A stretch of 64,000 nucleotides of DNA from Lachnospiraceae bacterium (GTDB taxonomy: Bacteria > Bacillota > Clostridia > Lachnospirales > Lachnospiraceae), in the NCBI GenBank assembly GCA_022652545.1, contig JALCRM010000001.1, positions 62,001 through 126,000 of the forward strand, given 5' to 3'. Position 1 is the stretch's first letter. The number at the start of each line of letters is the position of its first letter. The translations under genes and the position numbers were made by a program. Positions 2,721-38,626 of this stretch are shown in pieces. The notes below the pieces were generated by a model. That model did no database searches and was not told where the DNA came from. It was given only the letters and a program-made list of their open reading frames with translations.

Positions 2721-4862
2721 ATGAAAAGATGGATCAGCAGGCTGACAACGGCGTCGTTGACGGCTGCTATGGTGCTGTCGCTGGCACCTGGCGCGGTGTA
2801 CGCCGAAGGCGTAAACGCAGCAGGTATGGCAGCTTCGGCATCTTCCGAGCAGTATGCAGCCGCAGCGGACTCCGGGGAAACGGCGGAAGAGGCGGCATTT
2901 ACAGCAGGTTCTGACGAGGCTGCAATCGAGGCCGGTTCCGGCGCAGCGGCGGACGAAGCGGCAGTCGAAGCCGGTTCGGAAGATGCGGCACCAGAGGCAA
3001 GTTCGGAGGAGGCTGCATCCGAAGCAAGCTCGGAGGAAGCAGCGGATACCGCGGCTTCTGTCGAGAAGGTCACCGCATCCTCAACGCAGCTGGCTGCGCC
3101 CACGGTAAGCTGGGGAGGTGACTATAACGACAGTTCTTATGAGCATGAGACGGTAACTGTAACGACAGTGGCAAACTGCACGGAAGGATATACAGTGCAG
3201 TTGTACAAAGACGGAACGCTTGCTTATAATACAGTTTTCAAAGCGACCTCAAGTGCCGATACGAAATTCGTTGTACCTGTCGGTGCGCAGATCAATACTA
3301 CGGGAAAGTATCAGGTGCGTGTACAGGCCAAGGGCAATACAGAAGCAGGTTATCAGGACAGCGACTGGGGTGAATCGGAAGAATGGGACTACACGGCACC
3401 TGATAAACTTCAGCAGCCGGCTCCGCCGACGTGGGAAGAGGGTCAAACGGGAAAATGCAGTATCTTTGTCCCTGATTCCGGTGCGCAGGGGTATCTGCTT
3501 GAATTGCTTAGAGATGGCGAAGTTGTAGGTACCTCTATAGGCTATACCTTCTGGAAAAATCCCGAAGACTTTACGGGACGTATGACGAAGGCCGGTAAAT
3601 ACAAGCTTAGAGTCCGGGCCCTCAGCGGAGACCTGACAAAATATGCAAACAGTGATTTTTCTGAATTCTCTGCGGAAGTGGATTTTTCGACCGGCAGCAC
3701 ATCCGTCAGGGAAGATATCGATGCCGCAACCGCAGCAGTGAACGCTGCCACGGATACTTCGTCGGCAGTTTCAGCACTTAAGGCACTTACCGATAAGGAC
3801 TCCGCAAGCAAGCTGAAAGGCGCTATGCTGTCCGAGTCAGCAGTCCGGAATAGTCTTGCCGACCTTGAAGCTGCTTACAAATCAAAGATGGGCATCACAC
3901 TGGACAGGACGGTAAACAGCGATCTGAGTGATGTTTTGACTGCTGATACAAGCAGGATCACTATTCTCGGGGCAGCTCTCAATACCACGACAGAAGCGGC
4001 TCAGCTGCATTTGAGACTGCATAAGCCGGATACGGATCTTTCAGCCGGTCTTCCGGACATTTACTATAATGCCGTGCCTTGCAGCATTGATCTGGAAGGC
4101 ATCAGCAGTTATATGTCCGTACCGGTATACGTCACGATGCCGGTTCCGAAGGGCGTCAATAAGGACTGTCTGGTCATTCTCGACTATGCTGACGGAAGCA
4201 CAACCTCTTATACGGTTATTGAGCCGACCCTGAATGCAGACGGCACGATCAGCTTTATCATGGACAGTTTCGGTGACTGCGTTTTTGCGGATAAGGGGAC
4301 TCCGTTTACGGATCTGGGGAGCAGTGCCTGGGTCAACACAGCTGTCTCGTATGTATATGGCAAAGGTCTCATGAAAGGTACGTCCGACACGACCTTCAAT
4401 CCGACCGGGACGCTTACCCGCGGCATGTTTGCGGCGATCCTGTACCGCACAGCCGGCAGTCCGTCGGTTACCTATACACAGAAATTCAGCGACGTTCCAT
4501 CCGGAAAGTACTATTCCCTGGCGGTCACCTGGGCAAGCAACAGCGGCCTGATCTCAGGCTACGGAGATACGGGAAGGTTCGGGCCGAACAATAACATCAC
4601 ACGCGCGCAGATCGCCAAGATCCTGTATCTGTATGCAAAGTCGAAAGGGTATGACCTGACGGCGGATGCCGATCTGTCCGGGTTCGCGGATGCGTCAAAA
4701 CTGAAAGGCAACTTCGTCGTCTACATGAAGTGGGCTGTCAGCAAAGGCCTTATTTCCGGTGCGACCTCGGGCAGTGAGAAATATCTGAATCCCGGCAGCA
4801 GCGCCACCCGCGCGCAGTGTGCCAAGATGATCAAACAGTTTTTGATCAACTGCGTAAAATAA
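2721..4862 (+). CDS. Secreted SLH-domain surface protein (class B SLH)
   Basis: A 713-residue exported protein. The signal peptide ends near residue 28 (GAVYA-EG), then an Ala/Glu/Ser-rich acidic linker runs to about 115. Two fibronectin-III-like beta domains follow (about 120-325), a short helical stretch, then a ZU5-like beta domain (about 415-520, with VPVYVTMPVPKGV). Three SLH repeats occupy about 526-713 (LTRGMFAAILYR, ITRAQIAKILYLYA, ATRAQCAKMIKQF). SLH triplets hold proteins non-covalently on secondary cell-wall polymer. The whole order is repeated in the protein at 31399, its closest paralogue here, and the SLH block matches the class B set at 26-38 kb. AGGAGAGGGG at 2701-2710 precedes the ATG. 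The role of the exposed domains is unknown. Confidence 0.88.
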   Translation: MKRWISRLTTASLTAAMVLSLAPGAVYAEGVNAAGMAASASSEQYAAAADSGETAEEAAFTAGSDEAAIEAGSGAAADEAAVEAGSEDAAPEASSEEAASEASSEEAADTAASVEKVTASSTQLAAPTVSWGGDYNDSSYEHETVTVTTVANCTEGYTVQLYKDGTLAYNTVFKATSSADTKFVVPVGAQINTTGKYQVRVQAKGNTEAGYQDSDWGESEEWDYTAPDKLQQPAPPTWEEGQTGKCSIFVPDSGAQGYLLELLRDGEVVGTSIGYTFWKNPEDFTGRMTKAGKYKLRVRALSGDLTKYANSDFSEFSAEVDFSTGSTSVREDIDAATAAVNAATDTSSAVSALKALTDKDSASKLKGAMLSESAVRNSLADLEAAYKSKMGITLDRTVNSDLSDVLTADTSRITILGAALNTTTEAAQLHLRLHKPDTDLSAGLPDIYYNAVPCSIDLEGISSYMSVPVYVTMPVPKGVNKDCLVILDYADGSTTSYTVIEPTLNADGTISFIMDSFGDCVFADKGTPFTDLGSSAWVNTAVSYVYGKGLMKGTSDTTFNPTGTLTRGMFAAILYRTAGSPSVTYTQKFSDVPSGKYYSLAVTWASNSGLISGYGDTGRFGPNNNITRAQIAKILYLYAKSKGYDLTADADLSGFADASKLKGNFVVYMKWAVSKGLISGATSGSEKYLNPGSSATRAQCAKMIKQFLINCVK

Positions 4863-4873
4863 TACAGGGACAG

Positions 4874-4906
4874 AGAGCAGGTACCGGAGAGGCACCTGCT
4901 CTTTTT
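4874..4906 (+). terminator. Terminator after the first SLH gene
   Basis: An inverted repeat (agagcaggt 4874-4882, acctgctct 4894-4902) is followed by a T run. The remaining bases to 5144 hold one imperfect hairpin (about 4979-5000) and the promoter of the next gene; no gene is seen there. Confidence 0.85.
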
Positions 4907-5087: not shown

Positions 5088-5144
5088 ATTCGTAATTTCA
5101 TTTATGATCACGGCATTACTCAATAACTATGCGGGGGCAGAAGC

Positions 5145-8100
5145 ATGAAAAGGAGACTGGCAGGCAGGGCGCTTGCTGTTGTTTTGTCAACAGCGATGGT
5201 ATTCACAACGGTTCCGTCTTCGGTATATGCAGAGGGAGAGAACGCAGGCCAGGGGACGGAAATGCAGTCGGCAGCCATAACCCCTGAAGCACAGGAGGCT
5301 GAGGAAGAAGGATCGGTGGTATCCGGTACTTCCGTATCAACATCCGAAGAAACAGCTGCTGCAGAAGAAACTGCAGCAATATCGGGTACCTCGGGAACTT
5401 CAGCCACAACCGATAATTCTGCATCCTCTGCCGCATCCGCTGCCTCTTCTACATCTTCCATAGCCGCAGCATCCGGGACATCTGCAGGGATCTCTGCTTC
5501 CGATAAATCTTCTGAAGTTTCTGCTTCCGACCAATCTGCAGCAACCGCAGTTTCAAAGGCAGCAGTTGAATACGCGATCATCTATGACGGAAATGCAGGA
5601 GACGATGACCTGACAGATCTTCCTGTGCAAAAGGAAAATTCCGATAATTCGAAGATCTCGGCAGATATACCGGGGAGAGATGGGTATGTTTTCAAGGAAT
5701 GGAATACGGAGAAGGACGGAAGCGGAAAAGACTATCAGCCGGGTGATTCCGTCGATCTCACGGAAGACCTTACTCTGTACGCGCAGTGGGAAGCAAAGGT
5801 ACAGGAGAAACTCGGCAGCACGGACAGCGAATGGTACAAGGATTATTCGTATTCGGTTAACACAGATGCAGATGGCAATAACAGACTGGTAATAGGCGAA
5901 TATACCGGCAATCTCAACGGCTTGTACCAAAGCGAACTTTATGTGCCGGCCAAAACAACGATCGACGGCGTAGAATACACAACTTCAATAACAGGGTATA
6001 ACCCTGTCGATCATGGAATGGGTTGGGGCTCTACTTTCGAGGGCATATGGTACAGTGGGCGTCAATCTATTACAAAACTGGTTTTTGAAAAAGGAGTTAT
6101 TTTTACCGGAAAATGCAGGACTATGTTTGCAGATATGGGCAAACTTACAGAATTGGATGTCAGCGGTGTAGACACAAGCAACGTCACGGACATGGCCGGT
6201 ATGTTTAATGAATGCAGCGAGCTCACAAGTCTGGACGTCAGTGGTTTTGATACTTCCAATGTAGAGAATATGGCCGGTATGTTTGCCGGTTGCAAAAAAC
6301 TGCAGAAACTGGATGTCAGCCAATTTAATACCAGTAAAGTTACTAGTATGGGGAAAGATCCAGGTATTGTCTCTTCTCAAAATTTTTATGGGATGTTTGA
6401 TGCTTGCGAAAGTCTTACTTCTTTGAATGTCAGCGGTTTCAACACAGAGAATGTTACAACTTTTGGCGGCATGTTCAAAGACTGCAGCAAACTGCAGTCA
6501 CTGGATCTTAGCCATTTTGTCACTGCCAAGGCGGGAACTCTGTATGATATGTTCAATGGCTGCAGCAGTCTGAAGACAATCAAGATCGGCAATATGGATA
6601 CCGGGAATGTAGTCTATTTTGATAGGATGTTTGACGGCTGCAGCAGCCTCGAGTCGCTGGATGTCTCCACATTCAGAACCACATCGGCTCAGTATATCGA
6701 TTATATGTTCAACGATTGTTCTTCCCTGACGTCACTGGACCTTTCTAACTTTGATATGAAATCGCTCAGCCTGACAGATACCAGAGGATATCCAAGTTCA
6801 ACATTCACCACGTTCCATTTGCTGGATGGATGCACAGCTTTGAAAGAAATAGAAGTTCCCACGCATCTGAACAGTTCGATCAGCAATGCGCTTCCCTCAG
6901 ATTTTTATAAAACCGGAAGTGATGGCAAAGCTGATCTGGCAGCCGGAGTATTTACTGCGCTTCCGACAGGCCTTGAAACAAGCATCAGTCTGGTGAGGAG
7001 CGATGAAATATCATCGGGGGTCGAAGGAGCAGTCAGCATTGCAGTGCCTTCCGGAAAAATTGCGGTCCGGGTATATGCCGAAAACGGGGAAGTATTAGCC
7101 GGTGCGGACGTAGGTATAACAAAAGCGGACGGAACATCTGCGGGAGAAGGAAACACCGATGATACAGGCAGTTTTTTCTGCGAAACATCCGGCAAGGTCA
7201 AGATCAGTGTTACCAAAAATGGTTATTTCAGCAAACTGGTGACGCGTACTTTGAGTACAGGAACAGCAACCTGCATCACACTGCTCTCCAAATCTGCACA
7301 CAGTTACAGTTGCTGCAGCATCATGTTAGACAATGAAATCGACATTCAATCAGAGAAGAAGGCGATCAGGCGCGTAGACGGGGGCGTCCTGGACAACCAG
7401 ATCGTCGTGAATATCGAGAAGGCAGATACGGCAGCCGATATCTCATCTTATGCTTTGTTACAGGATGGGAAAGTAATCACCAATTCGAGCAGTAATACCC
7501 TGACCGTCAACCTGGAGGCAAGTGACAAGATCGAAGCCGGAAAGAAGATTTCGGTATGTGCATATAATTCTGACGGCAACAAGGCGATCACGATCGATAC
7601 ACAGTTGAGCATTCTGGAATCAGAGTCTGATGGAAGTTTGACAATCGGAAAAAGTATAGACTTTACCATTCCGGATAATGTTCCAATCCTGGGTGGAAAT
7701 GAAATGTCATTCGATACAGATGTGAACAGTCCTATTGACGTGGAAATATCAGAGAATAAAATCAAGATCTATATCGGTAAAAACACCAAAAAAACCATGG
7801 AGGAATATCAAAAAACAGTGCTGAATGGCGCTGATTACGGCTCTGATGCGGATCTGTATGATATCTTCAGTGACCGGTGTAATTATCAGAAACTGTTTGG
7901 CGATCAACTCGACAGCACGGGCGAAAAGGCAACTGTCGCGGGCTTCAGCGTCAAGCAGCAGGTTTATGGCTATGGCGAAGCATATTTCAGTCCGAATACC
8001 TCACGTTCGGTTGTTACATGTAAGATTATTTACAAAATAACCGGTTCCGGTTCACACACATGGTATTGGGTTGTACTCGTGCCGCTGTATATAGATATCA

Positions 8101-11100
8101 GCGGGGAGATTTCTGATGAGGTAAGCCTGAAAGGTGTTTTGACCTTCGGGGACGGCCTGGAATCCTATAAGTTTTCCGGGGCAAACAAGCTCAGTACTTC
8201 GCTTACACTTTCTGCCGGCGCCGGATTCAAGGGAAAGCTGGATGTGGAAGCATCCGGAACGGGAGAAATAGACTGGGAAATCAGTCTGAATGACGGCAAA
8301 AGTACGGTAGATGCCGAATTGTCAGCCAAGGTAAGCGCTACTGCGTTTCTGTTCAGCTATGAATATGAACTTTATGACCAGACCTGGCGATGGTACCCCC
8401 AGGAAAGCAATTCTGCTGAAAAGTTAGGCGCAGACGTCAGTGACACTGACAATTATAAGCTGATGTCCCGTGACTATGTGCACGGTTCAGGCTCCATGGA
8501 ACGTCTTAACGCATCGGGCAGCGGAACTTCGGGCGCAGAAGCTGTTTTGAAAGGCATCTATCCCATGAGTAAGCCCCGGCTCGTCTATTACGGCGGGAAA
8601 CAGTATCTGTTTTATCTGGATGACGTTTCAAGCCGCGGCAGCGCGGATCGCACGGCACTTTACTGCAGTGTGGACGGCGGCACCCCGTTTATCGTGCAGA
8701 ATGACAAAACAGCCGACTTTGCCTTCGATTGCGCAGCAGGGAGCGATGGCGTCTATCTTGTATGGCAGAATGCCACAAAGACTTTCGGGAACTCCGTAGA
8801 CAACTATGATTCCTATGCATCCGCAATGAAACTCAGTGCGGCAAAACTCAGCGGCAGCACGGTTTCGAAGACCTGGACGATGAACACGACGTCCGGTATT
8901 GCCCCGATGATGCCTTCACTTGCCATAGATGGGAGCGGCGTGACGGCGGCGTGGGTAGAAAATGCATCGAATTCCATGTCCATGAAGGGCACCAATGCTG
9001 TCATGACAGAAACGGTCGGCGGTACGTCGGCTTCGAAAATGGCGGAGACAGACAAAACTGTGACCGGACTATCTCTCGGGCTTCTCGGCGGAACGCCTAC
9101 CGCAGCCTGGACGGAAGATACAGACGGCGATCTTACGACGACTGCTGACGAGGAGATCTACGCAGTCCAGGGAACGACGGTGACCCGCGTCACAAGCAAT
9201 GATACGGTGGATTCTGACCCGCAGTTCGCCTCTTACAACGGAGGCACGCACTTAGTCTGGTTCACCGGTTCGAATTATAATGCGATTGACAGCCTCGGGG
9301 GGACGGCTGCAGGGCTCCTCAGTGAAGACAATGCCGCAGCCAATGCGGACTACATGATTTCAGGAGACGGAACAAACGGTCTGCTCACCTGGTGGACAGA
9401 GGATCGCATCAACGACCAGGTAAACAGTGTACTGTATCAGACGCAGTGCACGGGCGGGGCGTTCGGTAGCGTGCAGCAGATCCTGAATACGGAAAAGCGG
9501 CTGGGATCATATTCGACAGCCTTCGATGGATCCGGAAACGGGAAGATCGCCTATACGCTGAAGGACGCGATCGGGGTCGCTGGTGAGACGGATCTTTATG
9601 TCGACAGTACCGCAGCGATCGCAACGGCAGCGATCGGGAGTCTTGTGTTCGATCCGGATAAGTATGTTTCCGGATCGGCGCTTCCTGTCGCACTTACCCT
9701 TCAGAATACCGGCAGCGCAGCCTCGGATGTGACAATAAAGCTCCTTTCCGGTACGACCGTGAGTTGGAGTGAGGACCTCGGAGGCATGGCGGCGGGCGCG
9801 GAGACATCCTTCGATCTTTCAAACGTGAACGTCGGAGCGGGTGATTACAACCTGGCAGTCTATACAGATGGTGTGCTTACGGATGAAAGTGACTTCCGAG
9901 TCGGCGATACCAACCTGAATGTCGTGTCCGGTGATTACTATTCCGGGACCGATTACTTAACGGATGTGCGCGTTCTCAACCGCTCGAAGATCGCGACCGG
10001 CGGGAAACTCACGATCACGGCAAACGACAGCAGCAGCACGGAACTTTACTCGACCGACCTCGCCACACTTGCAGGCGGAGAAACAGCTTCCTATACAGTC
10101 AACCTGACCGACCTCTTTGGAAAAACATCCGCGAAGAGCGCAGTCCTCAATGTTACCGCGAGTGAAAGCGAGTCAGAACTCGGAGACAACACGATAACGC
10201 TCTATGCCCCGGATGCCCTGGACGATCTGGTGTCGGTATCGCTGGACACGGGCGGTGCCGATCTCAATGTCGGGGAAACAAGGCAGCTGACGGCTACGGT
10301 CACGCCTTCGGACACCGGATCTTCGGTGAGCTGGACGAGCAGTGACACCTCGGTCGCTACGGTGGATTCGAATGGCCTGGTGACGGCAGTGGCTACCGGT
10401 ACAGCGTCCATTACAGCTACCTGCGGGGACAACTGTGTGGCCGGATCATGCAGCATCAACGTGGCACAGCCTGCAGGAGCAAAAGTCAGCGTGACCGGGG
10501 TAAGCCTCGACAGCAGCCAGGTCACCGTCGGAGAAGGAAAAACAAAACAGCTGAAGGCAACGATCACACCGTCTGACGCGACGAACAAGGCGCTGGCCTG
10601 GGCGACAAGCGACTCCGCAGTGGCAAGTGTTTCGTCTGAAGGTCTAGTAACGGCGAACGGCACAGGAACCGCAACGATCACTGTAAGCACAGCGGATGGT
10701 ACATTTACAGACAAGTGTGCAGTGACGGTCATTGCGAACGTCGATCCTTCAGCACCGCTGCCGTTCACAGATGTGCCTTCGACCAAGTGGTATTACAGCA
10801 GCATACAGTATGTTTACCAGAGAGGTCTGATCACAGGCGCGACTTCGACGACCTTCAATCCGTCGAGCAACCTGACCCGCGGCCAGTTTGCGGCGATCCT
10901 GTATCGTATGGCGGGCAGGCCGGCAGTGATCTACACGGCAAAATACAAGGATGTACCCGACGGCAAGTATTATTCGGCTGCGGCAATGTGGTCGAGCAGC
11001 GACAGTGTCGGTGTGCTCTTCGGTGACAGAAATTCCAGCGGCCAGTCTGTGGGCTACTACCGTCCGCTCGACAAGATCACGCGGCAGGAGATGGCGGCTG

Positions 11101-11342: not shown

Positions 11343-11373
11343 AAATGACCGATTATTACCGATGAGAGAAAGG

Positions 11374-11423
11374 CTATACTCTATTAACTATGCGGGGCAG
11401 AAGTATGAAAAGGAGACGGGCAG
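11374..11423 (+). pseudogene. Vestigial 5' end of a lost SLH gene
   Basis: About 50 bases here closely copy 5114-5163, the promoter-proximal region, ribosome site and first seven codons of the 5145 SLH gene (shared: aactatgcgggg, cagaag, atgaaaaggagac, ggcag). The reading frame from the ATG at 11405 runs only about 36 codons (MKRRRAASFSAY...) and loses the signal-peptide pattern. This is best read as the remnant of a deleted paralogue. The same bases form a hairpin (11407-11415 with 11425-11433), which may now act as terminator for the 5145 gene. Confidence 0.5.
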
Positions 11424-12128: not shown

Positions 12129-12848
12129 ATGCGAATTGCGATTTGTGACGATGACACTGCTTCGGCGGAGGAACTGAGGCAGGAACTGGAGAAAACAGCG
12201 CCAAACCAACAGATCAATGTTTTCACATCGATGGATGCGTTCATGAGTCTGTCCGGAGAATGCAGCTACGACGTGATTTTCGTGGACGTCAATTGCAAAG
12301 CTGAGAAAAGCGGGATCGGCCGCGCAGAAGATCTTTATGTGCGCTGCCCTAAAGCACAGGCTTTTATCGTGACCGGGCATGGGGACAAGCATTCACAGCG
12401 AGTGTTTCTTTCCAGATCCAATCTCTGCGGCTATCTGGTAAAGCCTATAGAACCGGAGATCCTCTCCAACCTTCTGACAGAAGTGCAGGAAAACATGGCT
12501 TTGCGATCCGAAGCAAAGCTCATCATCCGGAACCGCGGGGCAGCACAGGCTGTGCCGTATTCGGAGATCCTGTATTTCGAAAACCGCGGGCACAAGGCCG
12601 TTGCCTGTCTTCAGGACAAAACATATGAAATCAATGACAGTCTTGAGTCTGTCAGAAGTGTTTTGCCTGCGAACTTTCTGAACTGCCACAAGAGTTATTC
12701 GGTAAATATGGATCATATCAGGATTTTCAATGACAGCAGAGTTATTCTGACCAACGGCGCGGAAGTGCCTGTCAGCAGGGCGAGGTTCGCGACAGCCCGC
12801 AGTCTGTATTTCCGTTACACCAGGCAGTCGGCCCGGTCGGAAAATTAA
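12129..12848 (+). CDS. LytTR-family response regulator (orphan)
   Basis: A 239-residue cytoplasmic regulator. The N-terminal receiver (1-120) has the acidic pocket DDD at 7-9, phospho-acceptor D53 (VIFVDVN) and K105 (LVKP). The C-terminal LytTR DNA-binding domain (about 130-235) has ILYFENRGHKAV and FLNCHKSYSVNMDHI. The family activates genes for surface or secreted factors by binding direct repeats near the -35. It closely resembles the regulator at 38652, but no kinase gene lies beside it, so it may respond to the kinase at 39410 or to another signal. It is 195 bases upstream of the class A SLH gene at 13044, with no clear terminator between. The ribosome site is weak (tggggta). Confidence 0.92.
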   Translation: MRIAICDDDTASAEELRQELEKTAPNQQINVFTSMDAFMSLSGECSYDVIFVDVNCKAEKSGIGRAEDLYVRCPKAQAFIVTGHGDKHSQRVFLSRSNLCGYLVKPIEPEILSNLLTEVQENMALRSEAKLIIRNRGAAQAVPYSEILYFENRGHKAVACLQDKTYEINDSLESVRSVLPANFLNCHKSYSVNMDHIRIFNDSRVILTNGAEVPVSRARFATARSLYFRYTRQSARSEN

Positions 12849-26019: not shown

Positions 26020-26141
26020 ATATGAATAAACAATTTTTACATTTGTATGACCATTTTTGCATATGTCTTATTTCCATATCAGGAAGAGAATAAAATAAAA
26101 AAAATATATTATATAAATTTCGGGGAGCGGGGGGTTATGTG

Positions 26142-29100: not shown

Positions 29101-31346
29101 TAACATCCATTGAACAGAGAGCGTTTGAGGATTGTACCTCCCTGACAAGTTTAACTTTGCCAAAATCGTTGAATAATCTGGATGGAAATGCGTTTTATGG
29201 ATGTTCGGCGCTGTCATCAGTTTGGATTCCCAAGAGCATTACCAGATGTGGAAATATAAATTATAGTTATCAAGGACCATTTACAGATTGTGGAAAATTG
29301 AATGATGTAAAGTATGAAGAAGGAATCACGAATATCCCCGGTTATTTGTTTGATCGATGCTCGGGTTTACAGAACATTACGATTCCAGATACGGTAACAG
29401 AAATTGGCCATTGTTCTTTTTCATTTTGTTCAAAACTTACGGATGTAAAATTCTCTGCAAATTTAACAAAGATAGGAAAAAGTGCATTTTATGAAGATCC
29501 ATTACTCAGTACTGCGGATGTTCCTTCCAGCGTTAAAGATATTGAAGACAATGTTTTCTATGAATGCTCTTCACTTAAGACATTCTCTTGGCCTGCAACA
29601 GGAACATCCATGGGAGACTATGTTTTTTACGGCTGCTCTGCTCTGACAGATGTCACTTTGCCGAAAGACAGAGTATATATTAATTCATATACTTTTTATG
29701 GTTGTAGTTCTCTTGTAAGTATTAATTTGCCAAACAGTTTACAGCATATTGAAAACAATGCTTTCCAGAACTGTACGAAACTCAGTACCATTACGATTCC
29801 CGGAAGTGTCCTGACGATCGACAACAGTGCTTTTCAGAACTGTGATTCACTGGTCAAGGTGGAGATCCCGAACGGCGTGCAGACAGTCGGAAACGATTGT
29901 TTCTATGACTGCGACAAACTGACGGATGTAACGGTAGCGGATTCGGTTACCAGTATCGGCACAGAGGCATTCAAGAGCTGCGATATTCTGGCTAATGTTA
30001 AGCTGGGTACCGGATTGACAGAACTCAAGGACAGCACGTTCATGGATTGCCCGAAGATCGTGTCGATCGTGATTCCGTACTATGTGACCAAGATCGATGC
30101 CCAGGTCTTTAAAAACGATTATGGTCTGACCGACATTACGCTGCCGCGGGCTCTTGCTTCAATCGGAAATGACACATTCAGTTATCCGGGAAAAATGACG
30201 ATCCACGGCATCAGCGGAACCTACGCCCAGACCTACGCCAATTTAAAAAGCATCAAATTTATTGATACATCAGTACCGGTGACTTCCGTAACTGTGACAC
30301 CGACTTTAACAACGCTTTTTCAGGACAAGACGATCCATCTCTCGCTGTCTGTACAGCCCGCAAATATGACGGATTCCATCGTATGGACATCCAGTAACGA
30401 GACTGTGGCGACCGTTGACACCAGCGGAACCGTAAGCGGGAAGAGTGCAGGTACAGCAACGATCACAGCAACTGTCGGGAGCAGGAAGGCCACATGCAAA
30501 GTAACGGTTGTTAAGCCGGTCACCTATATTTATATCAAGGCAGATAAAAATGCACTGACCGTCGGAGAGACCCTGCAACTTCACGGTTATTATTCACCAT
30601 CGGATGCAAGTAGCAATATAGCATATTGGTCTACAGACAATGCGGCAGTGGTAAAGATCGACAGGAACAGCGGACTGGCGGTGGCAGTAGGGGCGGGAAC
30701 AGCCGTCATCACGATCACACCCAAGATCGGTGATTGCAAAGGAACATATACGATCACTGTTACCGGGGGATCCGGAGACGGACTGCCTTTCACTGACCTT
30801 GGCACCAAGGATTGGGTCCGGACAGCCGTAAAGTATGTTTACAGCAATGGCCTCATGTCCGGCACCTCGGCTACGACCTTCAAACCGAATGATTCCCTGA
30901 CGCGCGGCATGTTTGCGGCGATTCTCTACCGCGTGGCCGGAAAGCCTGCGGTTACTTATACAAGTAAGTTCAGCGATGTGCCTGCCGGAAAGTATTATTC
31001 TTTGCCTATTACCTGGGCAAGCAATACCGGCCTGATCTCAGGATATGGAGATACAGGAAGACTCGGGCCTGCCAATAATATCACCCGCGGTCAGATCGCC
31101 AAGATTCTGTACCTTTATGCAAAGTCGAAGGGCTACGACCTGACAGCGACTGCTGACCTGAGCGGCTTTGCCGATAAAGATCTGCTCAAAGGCAACTTCG
31201 TCACCTACATGCAGTGGGCGGTCACCAAAGGCCTGATCTCCGGTTCCACTTCCGGAAGCACCAAATATCTGCATCCAGGCGACAGTGCCACCCGCGCGCA
31301 GTGCGCCAAGATGATCAAACAGTTCTGTGAGAACTGCGCAAAATAA
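26142..31346 (+). CDS. Giant secreted protein with SLH motifs at both ends and BspA repeats (class B SLH)
   Basis: A 1734-residue exported protein. The ATG at 26142 is chosen by alignment with the nearly identical start of the 33651 protein (MKSR-, RRMLTVLL); a GTG one codon upstream is possible. Order: signal peptide to about 29; acidic Ser/Ala linker to about 127; Listeria-Bacteroides repeat about 128-220; two divergent SLH-like repeats about 231-371; a beta-rich region of unknown fold about 380-820; BspA LRR_5 repeats about 823-1376; two Big_2 domains about 1380-1543; and the class B SLH triplet about 1547-1734 ending FCENCAK. An internal tandem duplication (period 432 bases) lies in the BspA part. 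A 52-base gap precedes the next gene, so readthrough is likely. Confidence 0.9.
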   Translation: MKSRFIRRMLTVLLTTATVLSTMPMQVMAEEGAETAETAEAENAVTAGSVDAQDENSAAGTDLSSSGISAVDDNASSEASTGLSTSDAGATSSAESTSESSVSVTSAAAADSDTAAESATSSSQAAVTYTITYDGNAEDAAGIPDAQTVNTSDTSASDTESTAEIPEGISAVLSSSIPQRAGYTFASWNTAQDGSGKTYKPGDTIEVTADITLFAQWEAERLVQSETPEVTRAAWISSLVSTFGMTVEEDNYPDNYYSDISSSDSCYKDIMEAVEFGLISLEAGAPFEPDAAATREFAAVTMNHCLGYQFNGSSYTYSDYTDVAEEDRASVQIAVDQGWLSLTDGKFLPNEPITSAESTAMIADAQKVLDTRKAPVSDSGVEFADGVIVIPDGTDVSCDADNNIVVINCPVSISSGRIFGYWINGIPGAGKASSVTVDGDKTIIKTTTEGYTYSDCFKKLNISGDSGLYESSYSPAENTTLTTESGDRVNIDVSDYEIEKLGGAGDSKITKEIHIHPTFSVNGSNVETSFSIDIVNIHIPYKIELLDKYAYAEVDADISMSGSISIDGLEGMNTIPIGEFTTVFGNVVLEMAYNASGRITLQWKGTMGLGMEISDGKFRLIENFEKKEFSLAAEVDVKAGPRLSWDCTLLHGSNGISAQLYAEAGAELKYLMKAYDSGTPRICQTMIAWLYADAGASAECFDKSWSDSWVLYDASNSPVRSYTHVEDGVEVSSCSRGDYYCGNTSLHLDKYTYNTSRLSKYHTAVTGKYYDSATSSVVSLFKYTLSTDPDDGSKQVATITGYNGSVTNLYIPAEIDGYKVTKIGKGAFAECSLIGTISIPDCVTSIEQRAFEDCTSLTSLTLPKSLNNLDGNAFYGCSALSSVWIPKSITRCGNINYSYQGPFTDCGKLNDVKYEEGITNIPGYLFDRCSGLQSITIPDTVTEIGPNAFSNCPGLASVSLSSNLTKIRNNAFAEDSLIGTISIPDCVTSIEQRAFEDCTSLTSLTLPKSLNNLDGNAFYGCSALSSVWIPKSITRCGNINYSYQGPFTDCGKLNDVKYEEGITNIPGYLFDRCSGLQNITIPDTVTEIGHCSFSFCSKLTDVKFSANLTKIGKSAFYEDPLLSTADVPSSVKDIEDNVFYECSSLKTFSWPATGTSMGDYVFYGCSALTDVTLPKDRVYINSYTFYGCSSLVSINLPNSLQHIENNAFQNCTKLSTITIPGSVLTIDNSAFQNCDSLVKVEIPNGVQTVGNDCFYDCDKLTDVTVADSVTSIGTEAFKSCDILANVKLGTGLTELKDSTFMDCPKIVSIVIPYYVTKIDAQVFKNDYGLTDITLPRALASIGNDTFSYPGKMTIHGISGTYAQTYANLKSIKFIDTSVPVTSVTVTPTLTTLFQDKTIHLSLSVQPANMTDSIVWTSSNETVATVDTSGTVSGKSAGTATITATVGSRKATCKVTVVKPVTYIYIKADKNALTVGETLQLHGYYSPSDASSNIAYWSTDNAAVVKIDRNSGLAVAVGAGTAVITITPKIGDCKGTYTITVTGGSGDGLPFTDLGTKDWVRTAVKYVYSNGLMSGTSATTFKPNDSLTRGMFAAILYRVAGKPAVTYTSKFSDVPAGKYYSLPITWASNTGLISGYGDTGRLGPANNITRGQIAKILYLYAKSKGYDLTATADLSGFADKDLLKGNFVTYMQWAVTKGLISGSTSGSTKYLHPGDSATRAQCAKMIKQFCENCAK
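28635..29373 (+). repeat. Recent 432-bp in-frame tandem duplication in the BspA region
   Basis: Bases 28635-28941 recur at 29067-29373 with only a few differences, an offset of 432 bases or 144 codons. Beyond 28941 the two copies diverge. Each unit carries several LRR_5 repeats plus the unusual segment SITRCGNINYSYQGPF. Confidence 0.92.
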
Positions 31347-31398: not shown

Positions 31399-33630
31399 AT
31401 GAAAAATGGAAGTGAATGTCATTATTTTGCAAAGCTGCTGTCAATTGTTCTTACAACAACGGTAGTGATTGCATTTTCAACAGGGATTTCCTTTGCTTCG
31501 CACGCTGAAGAAGAGATAATGTCCTCCGACCCGGCAGAATTCTTGGAAACTGATTCATCGGAGACTGCTGCATCCGGCACCCTGGTAGCAGCATCGGCAG
31601 TTTCAGCAGAGGAAGCGTCATCAGAGACAGTACCGGGAGACACCGCATCATCAGTAGCTTCAGCAGAGGAAGCGTCGTCAGAGGCAGTCTCGGGAGACGC
31701 CGCATCATCGGCAGTTTCAACAGAGGAAGTATCGTCAGAGGCAGTCTCGGGAGACGTCGCATCGTCCGCTGCTTCAGCGGAAGAAGGAATATCCGAGGAC
31801 GCACAGGATCGATTGGCGGCATCATCCACCAAGCCTGTTCTAACGACACCTGTCGTCGAATGGGGTGGGATTCAAGACGGAGAACAATTTGGAAATCAAT
31901 ATGTTACCGTAACTACCTTTGATGATATAAAGACCACAATTTCTTTATCAGTATATAAAGATAATGTTCAGTTGTATTGTTTATGTAATACAGTGACATC
32001 CCCTGGTAAATATGTATTTTTTATTGGCAATTTGATCAATGGATCCGGAACCTATTATTGTCTTGCTTGGTTATCATCGGATACTACATATCGGGATAGT
32101 AATGCCGGTGTCACAGAAACATGGAAATACGAAGAACCGGCAAAACTTTCTACACCTGAAGCTCCAAAGTGGTCTACAAAGTATCCGAACTGGATCAGTT
32201 TTACCATACCGGATGATGCGTGTGGGTATGTAATAAAGACATATAAAAACGGAAAAGATACACACTTTGATCGTGTTTGCCCTTCTTTGACGAGCAAGCA
32301 AATTATGGCTAATCTTACGGATGATATGTTGGCCGACGGAGAGTACACTTTTACCGTCAGGGCGTTGAGCGGCGATTTCACAAAGTTCGGAAACAGCGAT
32401 GAATCATCCTTTTCCACACCCCATGCTTCGACGAATCAGAAGGGCCAGTTCAAAAGCGATCTGTCAGCGGCAGTCAGTGAAATGAAAGCCGCCGGCGATG
32501 CTCAGACAGCCTGCACTGTTCTGGAGGAATTCACACAAAAATATTCGTGTAGTGATATTGATGGATATTTATCTGTTGACAATGATCTTTGGAACGATGT
32601 TGCAGCCTTAGAGACCTCTTATTGCGAAAAGGCAGGAATTTCCATAGTAAAAACAGTCGACAGCGAACTGAAAGATCTGTGGCCGGATGCTGCCGACAGG
32701 ATCATTGCGACCGGTGCGTGCCTGAATGTAACGGCACCGCAGCAGACAGCGCAGCTTACTGTCGGAAAACCGACCATGACGCAGAATATGAGCTCTATAT
32801 ATAAAAATTGTGTGCAATGCCACATCAGCTGCGGCGGAGATTCATATACTGACCGTTTTCCCATACAACTGACAATACCGGTTCCCAAAGGCGTTGCCAC
32901 GGATGATATTCATGTTTTGTATGATATCAGTTCTGACAGCAATGCAAATATAGATGCAAAGTATAATGAAAATGGCACGACTACATTTGTTTTACCTTTG
33001 AAAAAATATGTGTCCTATTATTACGGGGATTATGTTTTTGCGAATGAAGATAAAACGCAGATGCTGCCTTTCTTAGATCTTTTCAATACAAAATACTGGG
33101 TCTGGGAAGCGGTTCGGTATGTTTACCACAACGGTCTCATGTCCGGCACCACGGCTACGACCTTCAAACCGAATGATCCCCTGACGCGCGGCATGTTTGC
33201 GGCGATCCTCTACCGCGTGGCCGGAAAGCCTGCGGTTACTTATACAAGCAAGTTCAGCGATGTGCCTGCCGGAAAGTATTATTCCCTGCCTATTACATGG
33301 GCAAGCAATACCGGCCTGATTTCAGGCTATGGAGACACAGGAAGATTCGGGCCTGCCAATAACATCACCCGCGGCCAGATCGCCAAGATCCTGTATCTGT
33401 ACGCAAAGTCGAAGGGCTATGACCTGACGGCGACCGCGGACCTGAGCGGTTTTGCCGATAAAGATCTGCTCAAAGGCAACTTCGTCACCTACATGCAGTG
33501 GGCAGTCACCAAGGGCCTGATCTCCGGAACGACTTCCGGCAGTGTCAAATATCTCAAGCCCGGCGACAGAGCTACCCGCGCGCAGTGCGCCAAGATGATC
33601 AAGCAGTTCTGCGAAAACTGCGCAAAATAA
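31399..33630 (+). CDS. Secreted SLH-domain surface protein (class B SLH), paralogue of the 2721 protein
   Basis: A 743-residue exported protein. It has a longer signal peptide than its neighbours (cut near 34, ISFAS-HA), then an acidic linker holding three 19-residue repeats to about 140. Two fibronectin-III-like beta domains (about 150-345), a helical stretch, a ZU5-like domain (about 440-550, with PIQLTIPVPKGV) and an SLH triplet (about 556-743, FCENCAK end) follow. The domain order equals that of the 2721 protein, while the SLH block matches the neighbouring class B genes more closely. The middle is AT-rich relative to the SLH end. aaaagggg at 31384-31391 precedes the ATG. The next gene begins 20 bases after the stop. 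Function of the exposed part is unknown. Confidence 0.88.
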   Translation: MKNGSECHYFAKLLSIVLTTTVVIAFSTGISFASHAEEEIMSSDPAEFLETDSSETAASGTLVAASAVSAEEASSETVPGDTASSVASAEEASSEAVSGDAASSAVSTEEVSSEAVSGDVASSAASAEEGISEDAQDRLAASSTKPVLTTPVVEWGGIQDGEQFGNQYVTVTTFDDIKTTISLSVYKDNVQLYCLCNTVTSPGKYVFFIGNLINGSGTYYCLAWLSSDTTYRDSNAGVTETWKYEEPAKLSTPEAPKWSTKYPNWISFTIPDDACGYVIKTYKNGKDTHFDRVCPSLTSKQIMANLTDDMLADGEYTFTVRALSGDFTKFGNSDESSFSTPHASTNQKGQFKSDLSAAVSEMKAAGDAQTACTVLEEFTQKYSCSDIDGYLSVDNDLWNDVAALETSYCEKAGISIVKTVDSELKDLWPDAADRIIATGACLNVTAPQQTAQLTVGKPTMTQNMSSIYKNCVQCHISCGGDSYTDRFPIQLTIPVPKGVATDDIHVLYDISSDSNANIDAKYNENGTTTFVLPLKKYVSYYYGDYVFANEDKTQMLPFLDLFNTKYWVWEAVRYVYHNGLMSGTTATTFKPNDPLTRGMFAAILYRVAGKPAVTYTSKFSDVPAGKYYSLPITWASNTGLISGYGDTGRFGPANNITRGQIAKILYLYAKSKGYDLTATADLSGFADKDLLKGNFVTYMQWAVTKGLISGTTSGSVKYLKPGDRATRAQCAKMIKQFCENCAK
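31609..31779 (+). repeat. Three 57-bp in-frame repeats in the linker
   Basis: Three successive 19-residue units of the form EE-A/V-SSE-T/A-V-x-GD-x-ASS. The DNA copies are closely similar, so unequal exchange could change copy number without loss of frame. Confidence 0.8.
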
Positions 33631-33650: not shown

Positions 33651-36164
33651 ATGAAATCAAGGTATGTCAGGAGAATGCTGACTGTTTTGCTTACAGCGGC
33701 TACGGTATTATCGACGATGCCGATGCAGGTCATGGCCGAAGAAGGCACTGAAATTTCCGCGAGCGATTCGGCAGTAGAGCCCGAGACTGCAGGGACTTCT
33801 GAAAGCGGTGCAGCAGCGGAGCCCGAGACTGCGGCGACTTCTGAAAGTGATGCTTCAACTGAGGCCGGGACCGAAGCTGTTCCCGAGAAAGTCGCTTCAT
33901 CCGAAAGCGAAACCGCGGATACTTCCGATACATCCGATTTTGAATTCAAAGATGGTTATTACGAACTTCCGTATGACAGTCAGGTGCCGAGTGCAACACA
34001 GGACGCGGACTATTCGCCGGAGACATCTGACGGGGAACGTTTGCAGGCATCGGTTTCGTACATACCGTCACTGTCCGGCATGCCGGGCGTGAGAAATCAG
34101 AACCCGTTCGGAGACTGCTGGGCCTTTGCCGGCATTTCCCTGGCAGAACTCAATATGATCAGGGAGCACGGAAGCAGTACCGGCATTGATCTCTCCGAAC
34201 TGCAGCTTGCCTATTTTACCTATAACTTTAACAAGGGCATATCGGATCCGCTTGGCGGGACGGAAGGAGATACTTCTGAATGTGCTTCGTCCGAAGGCTT
34301 TCTGAATGCCGGCGGAAACCTGTCCTTTGCTGCGCAGACTTTACTGAACTGGTCCGGCGCGGAGAATGAAAGTGACGACCGGTATCCGTCTTCCTGGACG
34401 AGCGGATCGACGCTGGATTCCTCTCATCAGTACGGAAAAGACGCCGTGCATGTGCAGGATGTTTATGTTTTGCAATTGAGTACGGATGCGGAACTGGCCA
34501 AAACATATATTTCGGAATACGGCGGCCTGGCCACCGCTATGTATGTGAACCGTTCGTACTTTCAGTCAGGGACGAACGCCTACTACTGCCCGACCCGGTA
34601 TTCGACCAATCATGCGATCTCGATCGTGGGCTGGGACGACAACTTCAGCAAAAGTAATTTTAAAAACACACCCGACGGGGACGGCGCATGGCTCGTGCGC
34701 AATCAGTGGGGCGGAAGCGGGTACGGTTATTACGGCTATTTCTGGCTTTCATACTACGACAAGAATCTGACGGATGCCGCATATGTTTTCAGGGCCGAGC
34801 CGGCAGATAACTATGACAATAATTATCAGTATGACGGAAACATTCTTTTTTCAGGCACCATGGGGTTTGGAAGCAGCTCACTGGATGCCGCAAGTGTTTT
34901 CCAGGTGCATGCAAATCCGAACGGATGCGAGCAGCTGCGGGCCGTCTCTTTTGAAGTGCCGTCTGCGACCAACCTGGACTACACCGTCCGGATCTATACG
35001 GGACTCACCTCAGGCAATAACCCGAAAAGCGGTACCCTGGCTGAAACCGTTACGGGCAAAACTGTCAGCGCCGGTGCATACACTGTGCCCGTAGACAGCA
35101 TTACTCTAAACGAGAACGAGATCTTTTCTGTCGTTGTTTCTCTGTCCAAATCTTCCGGCACGGTTTCAATCGGCACGGAAAGAAATTACAGCGATGAAAA
35201 CATTAAATGCGTTGCCAGCGCAAAACAGGGAAGAAGCTTTATCGGCAACGGGTATGGCTACTGGCTGGATATCGGTCAAAACAGCGGCATTAATGTGCGT
35301 GTCAAGGCATTCACAAAAAATGTGGCTTCCGTACCTCTTAATGGGATTTCTCTCAATAAGTCGGCACTGCAGCTCCAGGCAGGCGATACTGCTTCTCTAT
35401 CGGTGAGCTATGACCCGTCTGATACGACGGATGACAAGACGGTCAGCTGGCGGAGCGACAATACATCGGTTGCCAAGGTAAGCGATAACGGAACGGTCAC
35501 TGCTGTGGCCGCAGGGACTGTAACTGTTACTGCATCGACATCGGACGGACTGCACAGTGCCGCATGCACAGTCACTGTCACGGAACAGGCAGAGGATAAA
35601 CTGCCGTTTACGGACGTAAATAAGACGGACTGGTTTTACGGCAGCGTACAGTATGTTTACAGCAACGGTCTCATGGCCGGCACCTCGGCTACGACCTTCA
35701 AGCCCTATGATACGCTGACGCGCGGCATGTTTGCGGCGATTCTCTACCGCGTGGCCGGTAAGCCTTCGGTTACTTATACAAGCAGGTTCAGCGACGTGCC
35801 TGCAGGAAAGTATTACTCCCTGCCTGTTACCTGGGCAAGCAATACCGGCCTGATCTCAGGTTATGGAGACACGGGCAGATTCGGGCCTGCCAATAATATC
35901 ACCCGCGGCCAGATCGCCAAGATCCTGTATCTGTACGCAAAGTCGAAGGGCTACGACCTGACGGCGACCGCAGATCTGTCCGGCTTTTCCGATAAGGATC
36001 TGCTCAAAGGCAACTTCGTCACCTACATGCAGTGGGCGGTCACCAAGGGCCTGATCTCCGGAACGACTTCCGGCAGTGCCAGATATCTAAGGCCCGGCGA
36101 CAGCGCCACACGCGCCCAGTGCGCCAAGATGATCCGATATTTCTGCGAAAATTGCGCAAAATAA
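33651..36164 (+). CDS. Wall-anchored papain-like cysteine protease with Big_2 and SLH domains (class B SLH)
   Basis: An 837-residue exported protein. Start at ATG 33651 after aggaagga (33634-33641); the frame is open further upstream but overlaps the previous SLH gene. Signal peptide to about 29, nearly identical to that of the 26142 protein; short linker; a C1A peptidase domain about 140-385 with oxyanion Q150, nucleophile C156 (GDCWAF), H321 (NHAISIVGWDD) and N351 (VRNQWG). A lectin-like beta domain (about 395-555), one Big_2 domain (about 562-646) and the SLH triplet (about 649-837) follow. The complete triad predicts an active extracellular protease held on the wall; substrate unknown. 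It begins 20 bases after the 31399 gene, so both are probably one transcript. Confidence 0.93.
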   Translation: MKSRYVRRMLTVLLTAATVLSTMPMQVMAEEGTEISASDSAVEPETAGTSESGAAAEPETAATSESDASTEAGTEAVPEKVASSESETADTSDTSDFEFKDGYYELPYDSQVPSATQDADYSPETSDGERLQASVSYIPSLSGMPGVRNQNPFGDCWAFAGISLAELNMIREHGSSTGIDLSELQLAYFTYNFNKGISDPLGGTEGDTSECASSEGFLNAGGNLSFAAQTLLNWSGAENESDDRYPSSWTSGSTLDSSHQYGKDAVHVQDVYVLQLSTDAELAKTYISEYGGLATAMYVNRSYFQSGTNAYYCPTRYSTNHAISIVGWDDNFSKSNFKNTPDGDGAWLVRNQWGGSGYGYYGYFWLSYYDKNLTDAAYVFRAEPADNYDNNYQYDGNILFSGTMGFGSSSLDAASVFQVHANPNGCEQLRAVSFEVPSATNLDYTVRIYTGLTSGNNPKSGTLAETVTGKTVSAGAYTVPVDSITLNENEIFSVVVSLSKSSGTVSIGTERNYSDENIKCVASAKQGRSFIGNGYGYWLDIGQNSGINVRVKAFTKNVASVPLNGISLNKSALQLQAGDTASLSVSYDPSDTTDDKTVSWRSDNTSVAKVSDNGTVTAVAAGTVTVTASTSDGLHSAACTVTVTEQAEDKLPFTDVNKTDWFYGSVQYVYSNGLMAGTSATTFKPYDTLTRGMFAAILYRVAGKPSVTYTSRFSDVPAGKYYSLPVTWASNTGLISGYGDTGRFGPANNITRGQIAKILYLYAKSKGYDLTATADLSGFSDKDLLKGNFVTYMQWAVTKGLISGTTSGSARYLRPGDSATRAQCAKMIRYFCENCAK

Positions 36165-36262: not shown

Positions 36263-38626
36263 ATGTTCAGGAAAATCGCGGGAAGAATAATCGCGGCAGT
36301 GCTGGCTGGCGCCATGGCTTTTACCATGGCGCCTTTGGCTGCTTATGCATCCTCAGCCGGCATGCCTGCAGGAGATACAGTCGAAAGCGCTGAGGAGTCC
36401 GCCTCGGTCGGCACATCCGAAGAAACTGCTGAGGAGTCCTCTTCGGTCGGAATATTCGAAGAAACTGCCGAAGAATCCGCTTCGACTTCAACGTCAGAAG
36501 CAGCCGTGGAGGAATCCGCCTCAGCTTCAACATCAGAAGAAGACGCAGAGGAAACTTCCTCGGCTTCGACATCAGAAGCAGCCGCGGAGGAATCCGCTTC
36601 GACTTCAACGTCTGAAGCAGCCGCGGAGGAATCCGCTTCAGCTTCGACATCAGAAGAAGTCGCCGATTCGTCAGACAGTGGCGCTGCCGGCCGGTATACG
36701 GTTACCTATGTAGATGACATGACGGAGCAGGAGCGGGAGAGGATCGAAAACGCTGCGGCGGAGCGCCTGCATTCCTCCGGCGGAACGGACAGTTCTGATT
36801 CACTGTTTTATCCGGAGTGCGCACCGCTCCGTTTCACAGGGATCTGCGTCGACGATGGAACTTCCGCTCAGGACAGTCAGCAGGGCAGCTCGCAGGAAGA
36901 AAATGTTCCCGAACGGGTCCAGGCCACTTCCCAGAACACAGGCTACTACTATACGCAGCTGAGTGCTCCTCAGAAGGCGGCTTACAGGGCTTATATGACC
37001 GAAGCGGCAAATCCCACATCCACTGCCGTTATCAGTATCAGTACCTCTGACGAGGTGACAGAGGACGATATGCAGGTCGCCCGTTATGCCATCGAATATG
37101 ACAGGCCGGATATCTTCTGGTTCGGGTACAGCTATAAATTTTCCTATGGATACGGTAGTAACTATATCAGCGGTTTGATTCCGACCGACGTATACAGTTC
37201 AGAGGACAAATACGAAGCTGACGTAGAAAGATATAATAAAGCCTGTGACAGCTTCATGTCGGGGATCGACACCTCGGAACCGCCCGCAGCCGTAGCCATG
37301 AAGATCCACGATAAACTGATATCCTGGGTAAGTTACGATTACGAAGGGGCCGGTTCCTCTACTGATATCTGGCCGCACACCGCCTACAATGCGCTTGTTT
37401 TGAAAAGCGCGGTCTGTGACGGCTATTCGAAGGCATATGAGGCGCTGCTCTATCGGGCGGGCATTACCGTGACGCTCATAATCGGTTCCAATCACGCGTG
37501 GAACAGTCTGCAGCTTGGCGGGGACTGGTATGAAGTCGACACTACCTGGGATGATCAGGATTACACGGAATTTCAGTACAAATATTTCAACCTCACAACT
37601 GCGGGCATGTCGGCCGAGAAATCGGCACATACGCGCATTACGGATGAAGTTGCACCGTATTTTCCGACAGCGTCGGGCACGCATTTCAGCTACAGCTACA
37701 TGAAAGACTGCGGGAAAACGCTTGACGCCGGAATGACCTCCGAGGGCAGGGAGATGAGCCTCGGAAAGCTTGTCGGCGGCACTCTGTCTCTGCTGAGCGT
37801 TGACACGGGAGCCACCAGCTGGGAACTGAAGATCTGTGAAAACATGAGCGGTTCCCTCGGTGCGATCGACAAACTTCTCTGGAAGGCGACGTCCTCACTG
37901 AATGCAGGCACGGCCCTCAGCGTGACATCGGCGTGGACGCGCCCGAAGCCTGTTCTGACAGTTACAATGAGCAGTACTTCCGGAGATATGAGTCTCAGTC
38001 TGTCAGTCGAGTTCGATAACGGTGCGTTCGGCAGCCTGAGCTGTGATCTGCCTGTAAGCAGTGCGGCGGATGCGATGCCGTTTCTGGATCTCGGGAGCGG
38101 TTCGTGGGTCAGGTCGGCGGTCTGGTATGTTTACAGCAATGGCCTCATGTCCGGGACTTCGGCCACGACCTTCAGACCGAATGATCCGCTGACGCGCGGC
38201 ATGTTTGCGACGATCCTCTATCGTATGGCCGGAAAGCCGGCTGTCACGTATTCGGCCAGGTTCAGTGATGTGCCTTCGGGAAAGTACTATTCCCTGCCTG
38301 TCACCTGGGCGAGCAATGCCGGCCTGATCTCGGGCTATGGTGATACGGGAAGATTCGGGCCTGCTGACAATATCACCCGCGCCCAGATCGCCAAGATCCT
38401 CTACCTGTATGCAAAGTCGAAGGGCTACGACCTGACGGCGACCGCGGACCTGAGCGGTTTTGCCGATAAGGATCTGCTCAAGGGAAACTTCGTCACCTAT
38501 ATGAAATGGGCAGTCACCAGGGGCCTGATCTCCGGAACGACCTCCGGCAGTGCCAGATATCTCAGGCCCGGCGACAGCGCTACCCGCGCCCAGTGCGCCA
38601 AGATGATCAAAAATTTTCTCAGATGA
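36263..38626 (+). CDS. Wall-anchored transglutaminase-like protein (class B SLH)
   Basis: A 787-residue exported protein. Start at ATG 36263 after gagggag (36251-36257), which gives a normal signal peptide (cut near 29, LAAYA-SS); the longer frame from 36194 does not. The linker has seven 13-residue repeats (about 45-135). A transglutaminase-like core holds C385 (AVCDGYSKAYEALL), H411 (SNHAWN) and D426 (YEVDTTWDD), the papain-fold triad. The SLH triplet is at about 605-787, but the usual class B end is shortened to KNFLR, without cysteines. Such domains may act as proteases or cross-linkers; which is unknown. TATAAT at 36214-36219 is a likely -10. The LytTR regulator gene starts 25 bases after the stop. 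Confidence 0.92.
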   Translation: MFRKIAGRIIAAVLAGAMAFTMAPLAAYASSAGMPAGDTVESAEESASVGTSEETAEESSSVGIFEETAEESASTSTSEAAVEESASASTSEEDAEETSSASTSEAAAEESASTSTSEAAAEESASASTSEEVADSSDSGAAGRYTVTYVDDMTEQERERIENAAAERLHSSGGTDSSDSLFYPECAPLRFTGICVDDGTSAQDSQQGSSQEENVPERVQATSQNTGYYYTQLSAPQKAAYRAYMTEAANPTSTAVISISTSDEVTEDDMQVARYAIEYDRPDIFWFGYSYKFSYGYGSNYISGLIPTDVYSSEDKYEADVERYNKACDSFMSGIDTSEPPAAVAMKIHDKLISWVSYDYEGAGSSTDIWPHTAYNALVLKSAVCDGYSKAYEALLYRAGITVTLIIGSNHAWNSLQLGGDWYEVDTTWDDQDYTEFQYKYFNLTTAGMSAEKSAHTRITDEVAPYFPTASGTHFSYSYMKDCGKTLDAGMTSEGREMSLGKLVGGTLSLLSVDTGATSWELKICENMSGSLGAIDKLLWKATSSLNAGTALSVTSAWTRPKPVLTVTMSSTSGDMSLSLSVEFDNGAFGSLSCDLPVSSAADAMPFLDLGSGSWVRSAVWYVYSNGLMSGTSATTFRPNDPLTRGMFATILYRMAGKPAVTYSARFSDVPSGKYYSLPVTWASNAGLISGYGDTGRFGPADNITRAQIAKILYLYAKSKGYDLTATADLSGFADKDLLKGNFVTYMKWAVTRGLISGTTSGSARYLRPGDSATRAQCAKMIKNFLR
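36395..36667 (+). repeat. Seven 39-bp in-frame repeats in the transglutaminase linker
   Basis: Seven successive 13-residue units of the form ESASxSTSExxAE. Units 3 to 7 are very close in DNA sequence. Change by whole units would keep the frame and alter the distance between SLH anchor and signal-peptide end. Confidence 0.85.

Follow-up and report, generated by a model that had tools for sequence, protein, structure and literature searches.

Introduction

The systems closest to the locus reported here have been described in Bacillus anthracis and C. difficile. According to one account (PMC8056022), S-layer homology (SLH) domains of Bacillus bind a pyruvylated wall polymer, and B. anthracis has many proteins (Sap, EA1, and 22 BSLs) that combine a three-motif SLH anchor with differing functional parts; the SLH domains of Sap and EA1 are 74% similar and their assembly domains 22% identical. 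Studies on the CWP family of C. difficile (PMC4973711, PMC8809339, PMC4089489) likewise describe 29 wall proteins that share a triple anchor and differ in their partner domains, together with an S-layer cassette occurring as 14 types, one of them a hybrid; Cwp84 is an S-layer cysteine protease of this species (PMC4089489).

We analyzed a window of 64,000 nucleotides from a Lachnospiraceae bacterium (positions 62001 to 126000 of contig C1; genome of 2.67 Mb, 81% complete). As in the two families above, many proteins combine a common anchor with differing functional parts, and two of them, S8 in the window and T1 on contig C14, are papain plus lectin-like proteases of the Cwp84 type, as in C. 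difficile. Unlike in B. anthracis, nine of the genes form one array, their SLH domains are C-terminal (S1 to S9), fall into two classes, and carry a synonymous signature of exchange. The anchor also differs from that of C. difficile, being SLH instead of CWB2. Recombinational switching in C. difficile was reportedly the subject of work by Dingle in 2013. Switching in that species replaces a cassette between strains, whereas the exchange proposed here would have occurred between paralogues of one genome. As far as sequence comparison can tell, the locus is probably a lineage-specific SLH family that was expanded in tandem, sporadic recombination between paralogues having homogenised its anchors. 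A literature search of limited range returned no paper on gene conversion or recombination of SLH-domain surface proteins; within the same range, concerted evolution combined with S-layer gave nothing on SLH gene families, judged by listing, and S-layer homology combined with domain shuffling gave only phage lysins, judged by title.

Organization of the locus

A preliminary description of the window had listed nine surface-protein genes and two further SLH genes on the minus strand at 47.5 to 53.1 kb. Open frames were present at all nine coordinates, S1 to S9 were all full-length, and Pfam matched SLH in each of them as well as in the minus-strand genes S10 and S11, in agreement with that description. 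The starts adopted here lie downstream of the beginning of the listed open frame in S4, S6, S8, and S9. The genome contains 14 SLH genes, namely, S1 to S9 on the plus strand (2721 to 38626), S10 and S11, and T1 to T3 on contig C14; each of these proteins as a whole scored above the PF00395 threshold, and one to three motifs passed singly.

Signal-like N termini were recognised by eye in S1 to S11. In S1 (2721 to 4862), the signal and an Ala/Ser/Glu linker lead into Fn3-like domains, a helical bundle, and a class B SLH domain. S2 (5145 to 11342) carries an Flg_new repeat, DUF285, and Big_2 after its signal and linker and ends in a class A SLH domain, as do S3 (13044 to 15278; Flg_new and BspA leucine-rich repeats), its tandem duplicate S4 (15393 to 21686; Flg_new, a long BspA region, and Big_2), and S5 (23168 to 25966; DUF285/PARCEL-type repeats and a stretch resembling the Ig-like region of S2). 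The remaining four genes carry class B domains. S6 (26142 to 31346) and S8 (33651 to 36164) share a 5′ block that precedes the linker and continue with Flg_new, BspA repeats, and Big_2 in S6 and with a Cwp84-type papain protease, a lectin-like domain, and Big_2 in S8. S7 (31399 to 33630) combines an unrelated signal and a linker with an S1-type middle, and S9 (36263 to 38626) combines a signal and a linker with a transglutaminase. On the minus strand, S10 (47528 to 50203) and S11 (50365 to 53139) have the same architecture, in which the linker, Flg_new, and BspA regions are followed by an internal SLH domain and a C-terminal beta-helix.

The array is broken in two places. One is occupied by a gene for the LytTR response regulator R1 (12129 to 12848, plus strand), preceded by apparent gene debris, and the other by an AAA_14/DUF4143 ATPase gene (21812 to 23038, plus strand). 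Closely 3′ of S6 to S9 come R2 (38640 to 39368, plus strand), a LytTR response regulator paralogous to R1 and directly 3′ of S9, and a GHKL sensor kinase gene (39410 to 40705, plus strand). Directly after the kinase gene lies a large gene for an M16-type (PreP-like) peptidase (40707 to 44828) with Ala/Ser/Asp/Glu-rich stretches and no SLH match; two more LytTR-domain genes (45029 to 46825) bring the window total to four. If the host is, as presumed, strictly anaerobic, the presence of a Rieske/VanA-type oxygenase gene (53396 to 54358) comes as a surprise. Promoter and terminator scans gave values within 2 standard deviations of shuffles and were given no weight.

Signal ends, linkers, and middle modules

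The signal peptides had been described as closely related, which held among S2 to S5 (56 to 86% amino acid identity) and for S6/S8 (83%) and failed for S1 and S9 (36 to 49% to S2 to S5) and for S7 (9 to 19% to every other gene). The nucleotide identity of the first 36 codons was 66 to 86% among S2 to S5 and 90% for S6/S8, with S7 again unrelated. The acidic Ala/Ser/Glu linker was found in all nine genes, residues 33 to 112 being composed of Ala, Ser, Glu, Thr, Asp, and Gly to a fraction of 0.78 to 0.91 with 0 to 2 Lys or Arg.

Pfam recovered the middle modules named in the preliminary description, namely, DUF285 in S2 and S5, BspA-type LRR_5 in S3, S4, and S6, papain C1 plus a lectin-like domain in S8, and the transglutaminase core in S9. 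The Fn3-like assignment of S1 and S7 had no Pfam match at an E value of 0.01 and was upheld at the level of fold. When the S1 middle was modeled (mean pLDDT, 76.6; pTM, 0.51; two-row alignment), the closest match in the PDB was to tandem Fn3 proteins (E = 9e-7; probability, 1.00), with low whole-model TM-scores of 0.17. Thus, S1 and S7 are predicted to carry Fn3-like pairs. The preliminary description did not include the Flg_new (Listeria-Bacteroides) repeat that follows the linker in S2, S3, S4, S6, S10, and S11 or the internal position of the SLH domain in S10 and S11.

In S8 and T1, both PF00112 and PF18560 were matched and the catalytic Cys and His motifs were kept, so that each has a papain C1A domain followed by a lectin-like domain, as in Cwp84-like proteins. 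The closest solved structure to S8 is that of Cwp84 (PDB 4ci7; E = 1.1e-27 over 130 to 497). Pfam gave no CWB2 match in either protein, the anchor being SLH. The T2-type middle is weakly M6-like, and T3, considered as a CHAP protein, was assigned by Pfam to GBS_Bsp-like. Beyond T1 on contig C14 (L024:1-6211), repeat-rich surface proteins are predicted, none with a listed SLH match.

The proposal that only the central module changes fails for the pairs with a common middle, namely, S1/S7 (33% amino acid identity), S2/S5 (27%), S3/S4, and S10/S11. S3/S4 and S10/S11 are full-length duplicate pairs; the BspA regions of the tandem duplicates S3 and S4 differ in length, and their comparison is possibly out of repeat register. 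No one cassette rule fits the nine genes, as signal ends are common to subsets only and the SLH domains fall into two classes. A strict constant-variable-constant structure is confined to S6/S8, S3/S4 being plain duplicates and the other genes sharing mainly their 3′ ends.

Two classes of SLH anchors

The SLH triplets, described as near identical, are alike only within class A (S2 to S5; 74 to 92% amino acid identity) or class B (S1 and S6 to S9; 76 to 92%). Identity between the classes was 46 to 50%, approximately the same as to S10 or T1, and the SLH domain of T2 was 63 to 70% identical to those of class A. Within classes, dS ranged from 0.34 to 1.02 and dN was much lower than dS, a pattern that, together with the full-length pairs S3/S4 and S10/S11, would be expected from plain tandem duplication and divergence, with purifying selection keeping the SLH domain and the signal while the middles drift faster.

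Synonymous-site evidence for past exchange

Synonymous sites are not a direct target of selection on the protein, and we therefore compared the share of identical codons among the codons specifying the same residue in both genes with the expected share. For SLH domains this share was 594/884 within class A (pairs, 0.60 to 0.77) and 1001/1461 within class B (pairs, 0.57 to 0.81), with class means of 0.67 to 0.69 and an expectation of 0.39 in both classes. Between classes A and B it was slightly raised (808/1690; 0.48), as it was between class A and T2 (219/488; 0.45); older exchange or ancestry may account for this. Comparisons of class B with T1 (164/416) and of both classes with S10 (291/752) gave 0.39, as expected, indicating that the SLH domain is under no general synonymous constraint.

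The contrast was also seen within gene pairs. In S1/S7, the middle was close to expectation (53/132; 0.40, expected 0.34) in comparison to the SLH domain (86/137; expected 0.39 to 0.40; Fisher, 2.5e-4). The same was found for S2/S5, with 34/99 for the middle (0.34, expected 0.36) versus 81/132 for the SLH domain (expected 0.39 to 0.40; Fisher, 6e-5). S10/S11 show the reverse, a homogenised core with diverged ends, the share being 250/279 (0.90) from the linker to the BspA core versus 132/213 (0.62) in the beta-helix (Fisher, 3e-13) and 0.86 in the SLH domain. Duplication followed by purifying selection is an unlikely explanation, because the contrast is synonymous and arises within one gene pair, and because comparisons of SLH domains beyond the classes gave no sign of synonymous constraint.

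The SLH proteins of Lachnospiraceae bacterium RGIG8731 (L037, L124, and L125) provide a comparison that sets a limit to this reading. This genome also has a tandem SLH array, of four genes, near a pyruvyltransferase-like gene (by eye), with papain and transglutaminase middles in the array and T2-type and GBS_Bsp-like middles on another contig. Unlike here, its nine SLH domains form their own clade without a strong synonymous excess; the five most alike (71 to 86%) had a synonymous identity of 0.45 to 0.55 against an expected 0.43 to 0.44. Their likeness is thus mainly at the protein level, as the duplication scenario would have it, and SLH protein likeness alone is no sign of exchange.

S6/S8 boundaries and conflict between trees

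Comparison of S6 and S8 in 30-nucleotide windows revealed sharp edges on both sides of unrelated middles. Identity was 20 to 30% upstream of the genes, jumped to 93% at the start codon, remained at 93 to 96% to approximately +90, and fell at approximately +100, beyond which it was 20 to 56% through the middles. The 3′ block began at 90% approximately 510 nucleotides before the stop codon, was 70 to 100% identical over the last 510 nucleotides, and ended at the stop codon. Two common ends with sharp edges around nonhomologous middles again argue against simple duplication and divergence.

The trees of middles and anchors also disagreed. In a papain tree of 50 rows (48 different; seven rows dropped for length), of which 44 had no SLH domain in their open frame, the middles of S8 and T1, comprising the papain and lectin-like domains, were grouped with a support of 100/95. 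Forcing S8 and T1 together in the SLH tree was rejected (p-AU = 2.7e-4). Direct alignment of the two proteins gave 53% amino acid identity over 32 N-terminal residues, the start codon of T1 being uncertain; the exchange among S6, S8, and T1 may have run in either direction. AU tests on the SLH tree also rejected the cross-genome pairs S9+V4 (p = 4e-56), T2+V5 (p = 1e-62), and T3+V6 (p = 5e-4), the union of four papain genes (p = 2e-7), and V3+W1, which share an unnamed middle (p = 0.027). A single papain-SLH clade was not rejected in the papain tree (p = 0.07). As independent fusions of SLH to common domains can also produce such cross-genome pairs, the claim of exchange was rested on the within-genome evidence.

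A larger SLH tree, into which 12 of the 29 outside loci L085 to L113 entered (SLH match of more than 150 model positions), set the nine RGIG8731 domains apart from all other rows by a branch (86/85) and gathered the 14 domains of our genome, with weak support (81/52), on a fork that also contained a long row from outside, L091. With four groups counted in this tree, the 14 domains need two changes because L091 falls among them. A reduced tree that left out L091 (long), L094 (odd composition), and L110 (near-copy of L109) separated the sets of the two genomes (92/92), the 12 other rows not being counted as groups. SLH domains thus sort largely by genome, although the two genomes have matching middles of the papain, transglutaminase, T2-type, and GBS_Bsp-like kinds.

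Past recombination between genes is supported on three counts: the synonymous contrasts within pairs, the abrupt edges of the S6/S8 blocks, and the disagreement of middle trees with SLH trees. Counting against sporadic exchange between paralogues as a general account, the N-terminal ends are common to subsets only, the full three-part cassette is found just in S6/S8, and AU tests did not reject S1+S7 (p = 0.116) or S2+S5 (p = 0.065) as SLH clades.

Active switching and regulation

The preliminary description had seen in the array a substrate for recombination-driven surface variation. Past exchange is in line with this proposal, and switching within a population is not supported by the sequence. 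If neighbours swapped middles often enough for mixed surfaces to occur in a population, as in active antigenic or phase variation, one would expect homologous blocks around unlike middles, and S6 and S8 do have blocks of approximately 100 (5′) and 510 (3′) nucleotides. Gene and repeat turnover is also suggested by two features. A 52-nucleotide stretch just 3′ of S2 (11372 to 11423, plus strand) is a likely relic of an S2-like ribosome-binding and start region, with a local alignment score of 35 versus a maximum of 13 in 200 shuffles; the sequence beyond it, as far as approximately 12010, resembles by eye the remains of a non-SLH gene. Within S6, the BspA region contains internal copies at 28600 and 29032 (28600 to 29331), 432 nucleotides apart and 95% identical over 300 nucleotides, which look like the most recent duplication in the array.

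Against such switching, each of the nine genes is complete, with a start and a signal-like N terminus, and truncated or start-less silent donor copies were absent among S1 to S9, the relic after S2 being the one start fragment. Long near-identical tracts were not found either, the longest exact tract being 56 nucleotides among S1 to S9 and 65 nucleotides for S10/S11. Together with the in-class SLH dS values given above, the 56-nucleotide maximum indicates that the exchanges were not recent.

A site-specific recombinase near the locus is needed by only some antigenic-variation systems. The reported lack of a recombinase in the window held for the two families searched. None of the four Phage_integrase (PF00589) matches of the genome lies in the window; the nearest on the contig is approximately 380 kb downstream of the array, and the 65 kb that separate the array from the upstream end of the contig have none. 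Resolvase (PF00239) had no match in the 81%-complete genome. Recombinase-driven inversion was rejected, there being no inverted repeats of at least 40 nucleotides in 2000 to 40000 and no nearby tyrosine or serine recombinase. We therefore regard frequent swapping of middles as improbable.

A direct repeat 5′ of S6 (26030 to 26062, plus strand) has a spacing that we take to be like that of LytTR sites and would have a corresponding regulatory role. Its pattern, written from the site itself, occurred in none of 100 shuffles and once in the window. One LytTR-like operator for all genes was rejected for the latter reason.

Wall anchoring and distribution

Beside the papain-SLH gene T1 on contig C14 lies a gene for a CsaB-like pyruvyltransferase (L024:12756-13922), which matched TIGR03609 (CsaB) at 3.8e-43 with 147.9 bits, under the cut-off of 213.1; pyruvyltransferase-like genes were also seen by eye near papain-SLH genes in L037 and L044. 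The wall ligand of the SLH anchors may be a pyruvylated polymer whose synthesis involves the C14 enzyme.

SLH domains of the array type were found in one of 62 genomes of the genus examined, that is, in our genome and in 0/61 others. Any SLH domain occurred in 3/61 and a CsaB-like protein in 1/61 genomes of the genus, both counts including our own genome. In the order, related SLH domains occurred in 167/295 genomes examined, and 36 of the 43 named loci with S8 relatives are labeled as Lachnospiraceae or a genus of it. In viral contigs, four stretches matched a pattern, none of them a relative of S8. The system therefore appears to be lineage-specific among the genus genomes examined, by gain or by loss elsewhere.

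This distribution would also fit uptake of the array as a block from another SLH-bearing lineage, the mosaic then being older than the genome. The flank gene at 58496 is typical of the genus, which favors such uptake. Its near-full-length matches reach 62% within the genus and 52% in other families, making it unlikely that the array stems from misbinning. Against block uptake, none of the loci examined contained a donor array, and the grouping of the 14 SLH domains from two contigs, bar one long outside row and with weak support, fits expansion within the lineage. We consider block uptake possible without favoring it; it is compatible with tandem expansion followed by sporadic exchange between paralogues.

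Implications

In the history that we favor, an SLH-anchored surface-protein family would have expanded in tandem within a Lachnospiraceae-like lineage, its SLH anchor being homogenised within each class and, in some pairs, its export end as well. In at least one case, S6/S8, sporadic homologous recombination would have combined homogenised ends with unrelated middles, presumably by ordinary RecA-type gene conversion or crossover. Proteins with BspA, Fn3, or DUF285 middles may act as adhesins, S8 as an S-layer or wall protease of the Cwp84 type, and S9 as a transglutaminase-like enzyme. The genes would form a stable repertoire, perhaps under the control of the LytTR regulators, rather than a set of switching cassettes.

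A further step, which we find doubtful, is that homologous ends let paralogues reassort modules often enough to produce strain-specific combinations, a recombinase-free source of surface diversity in gut or rumen bacteria. If strains were to show reassorted middles, the surface diversity of gut commensals, with its bearing on phage receptors, adhesion, and immune recognition, would be linked to ordinary recombination between paralogues. The locus offers a case, outside the well-known pathogens, in which the anchor of a surface family appears to be younger in history than the functional parts, and it cautions that a phylogeny built on SLH domains can trace the past of the anchor instead of that of the protein.
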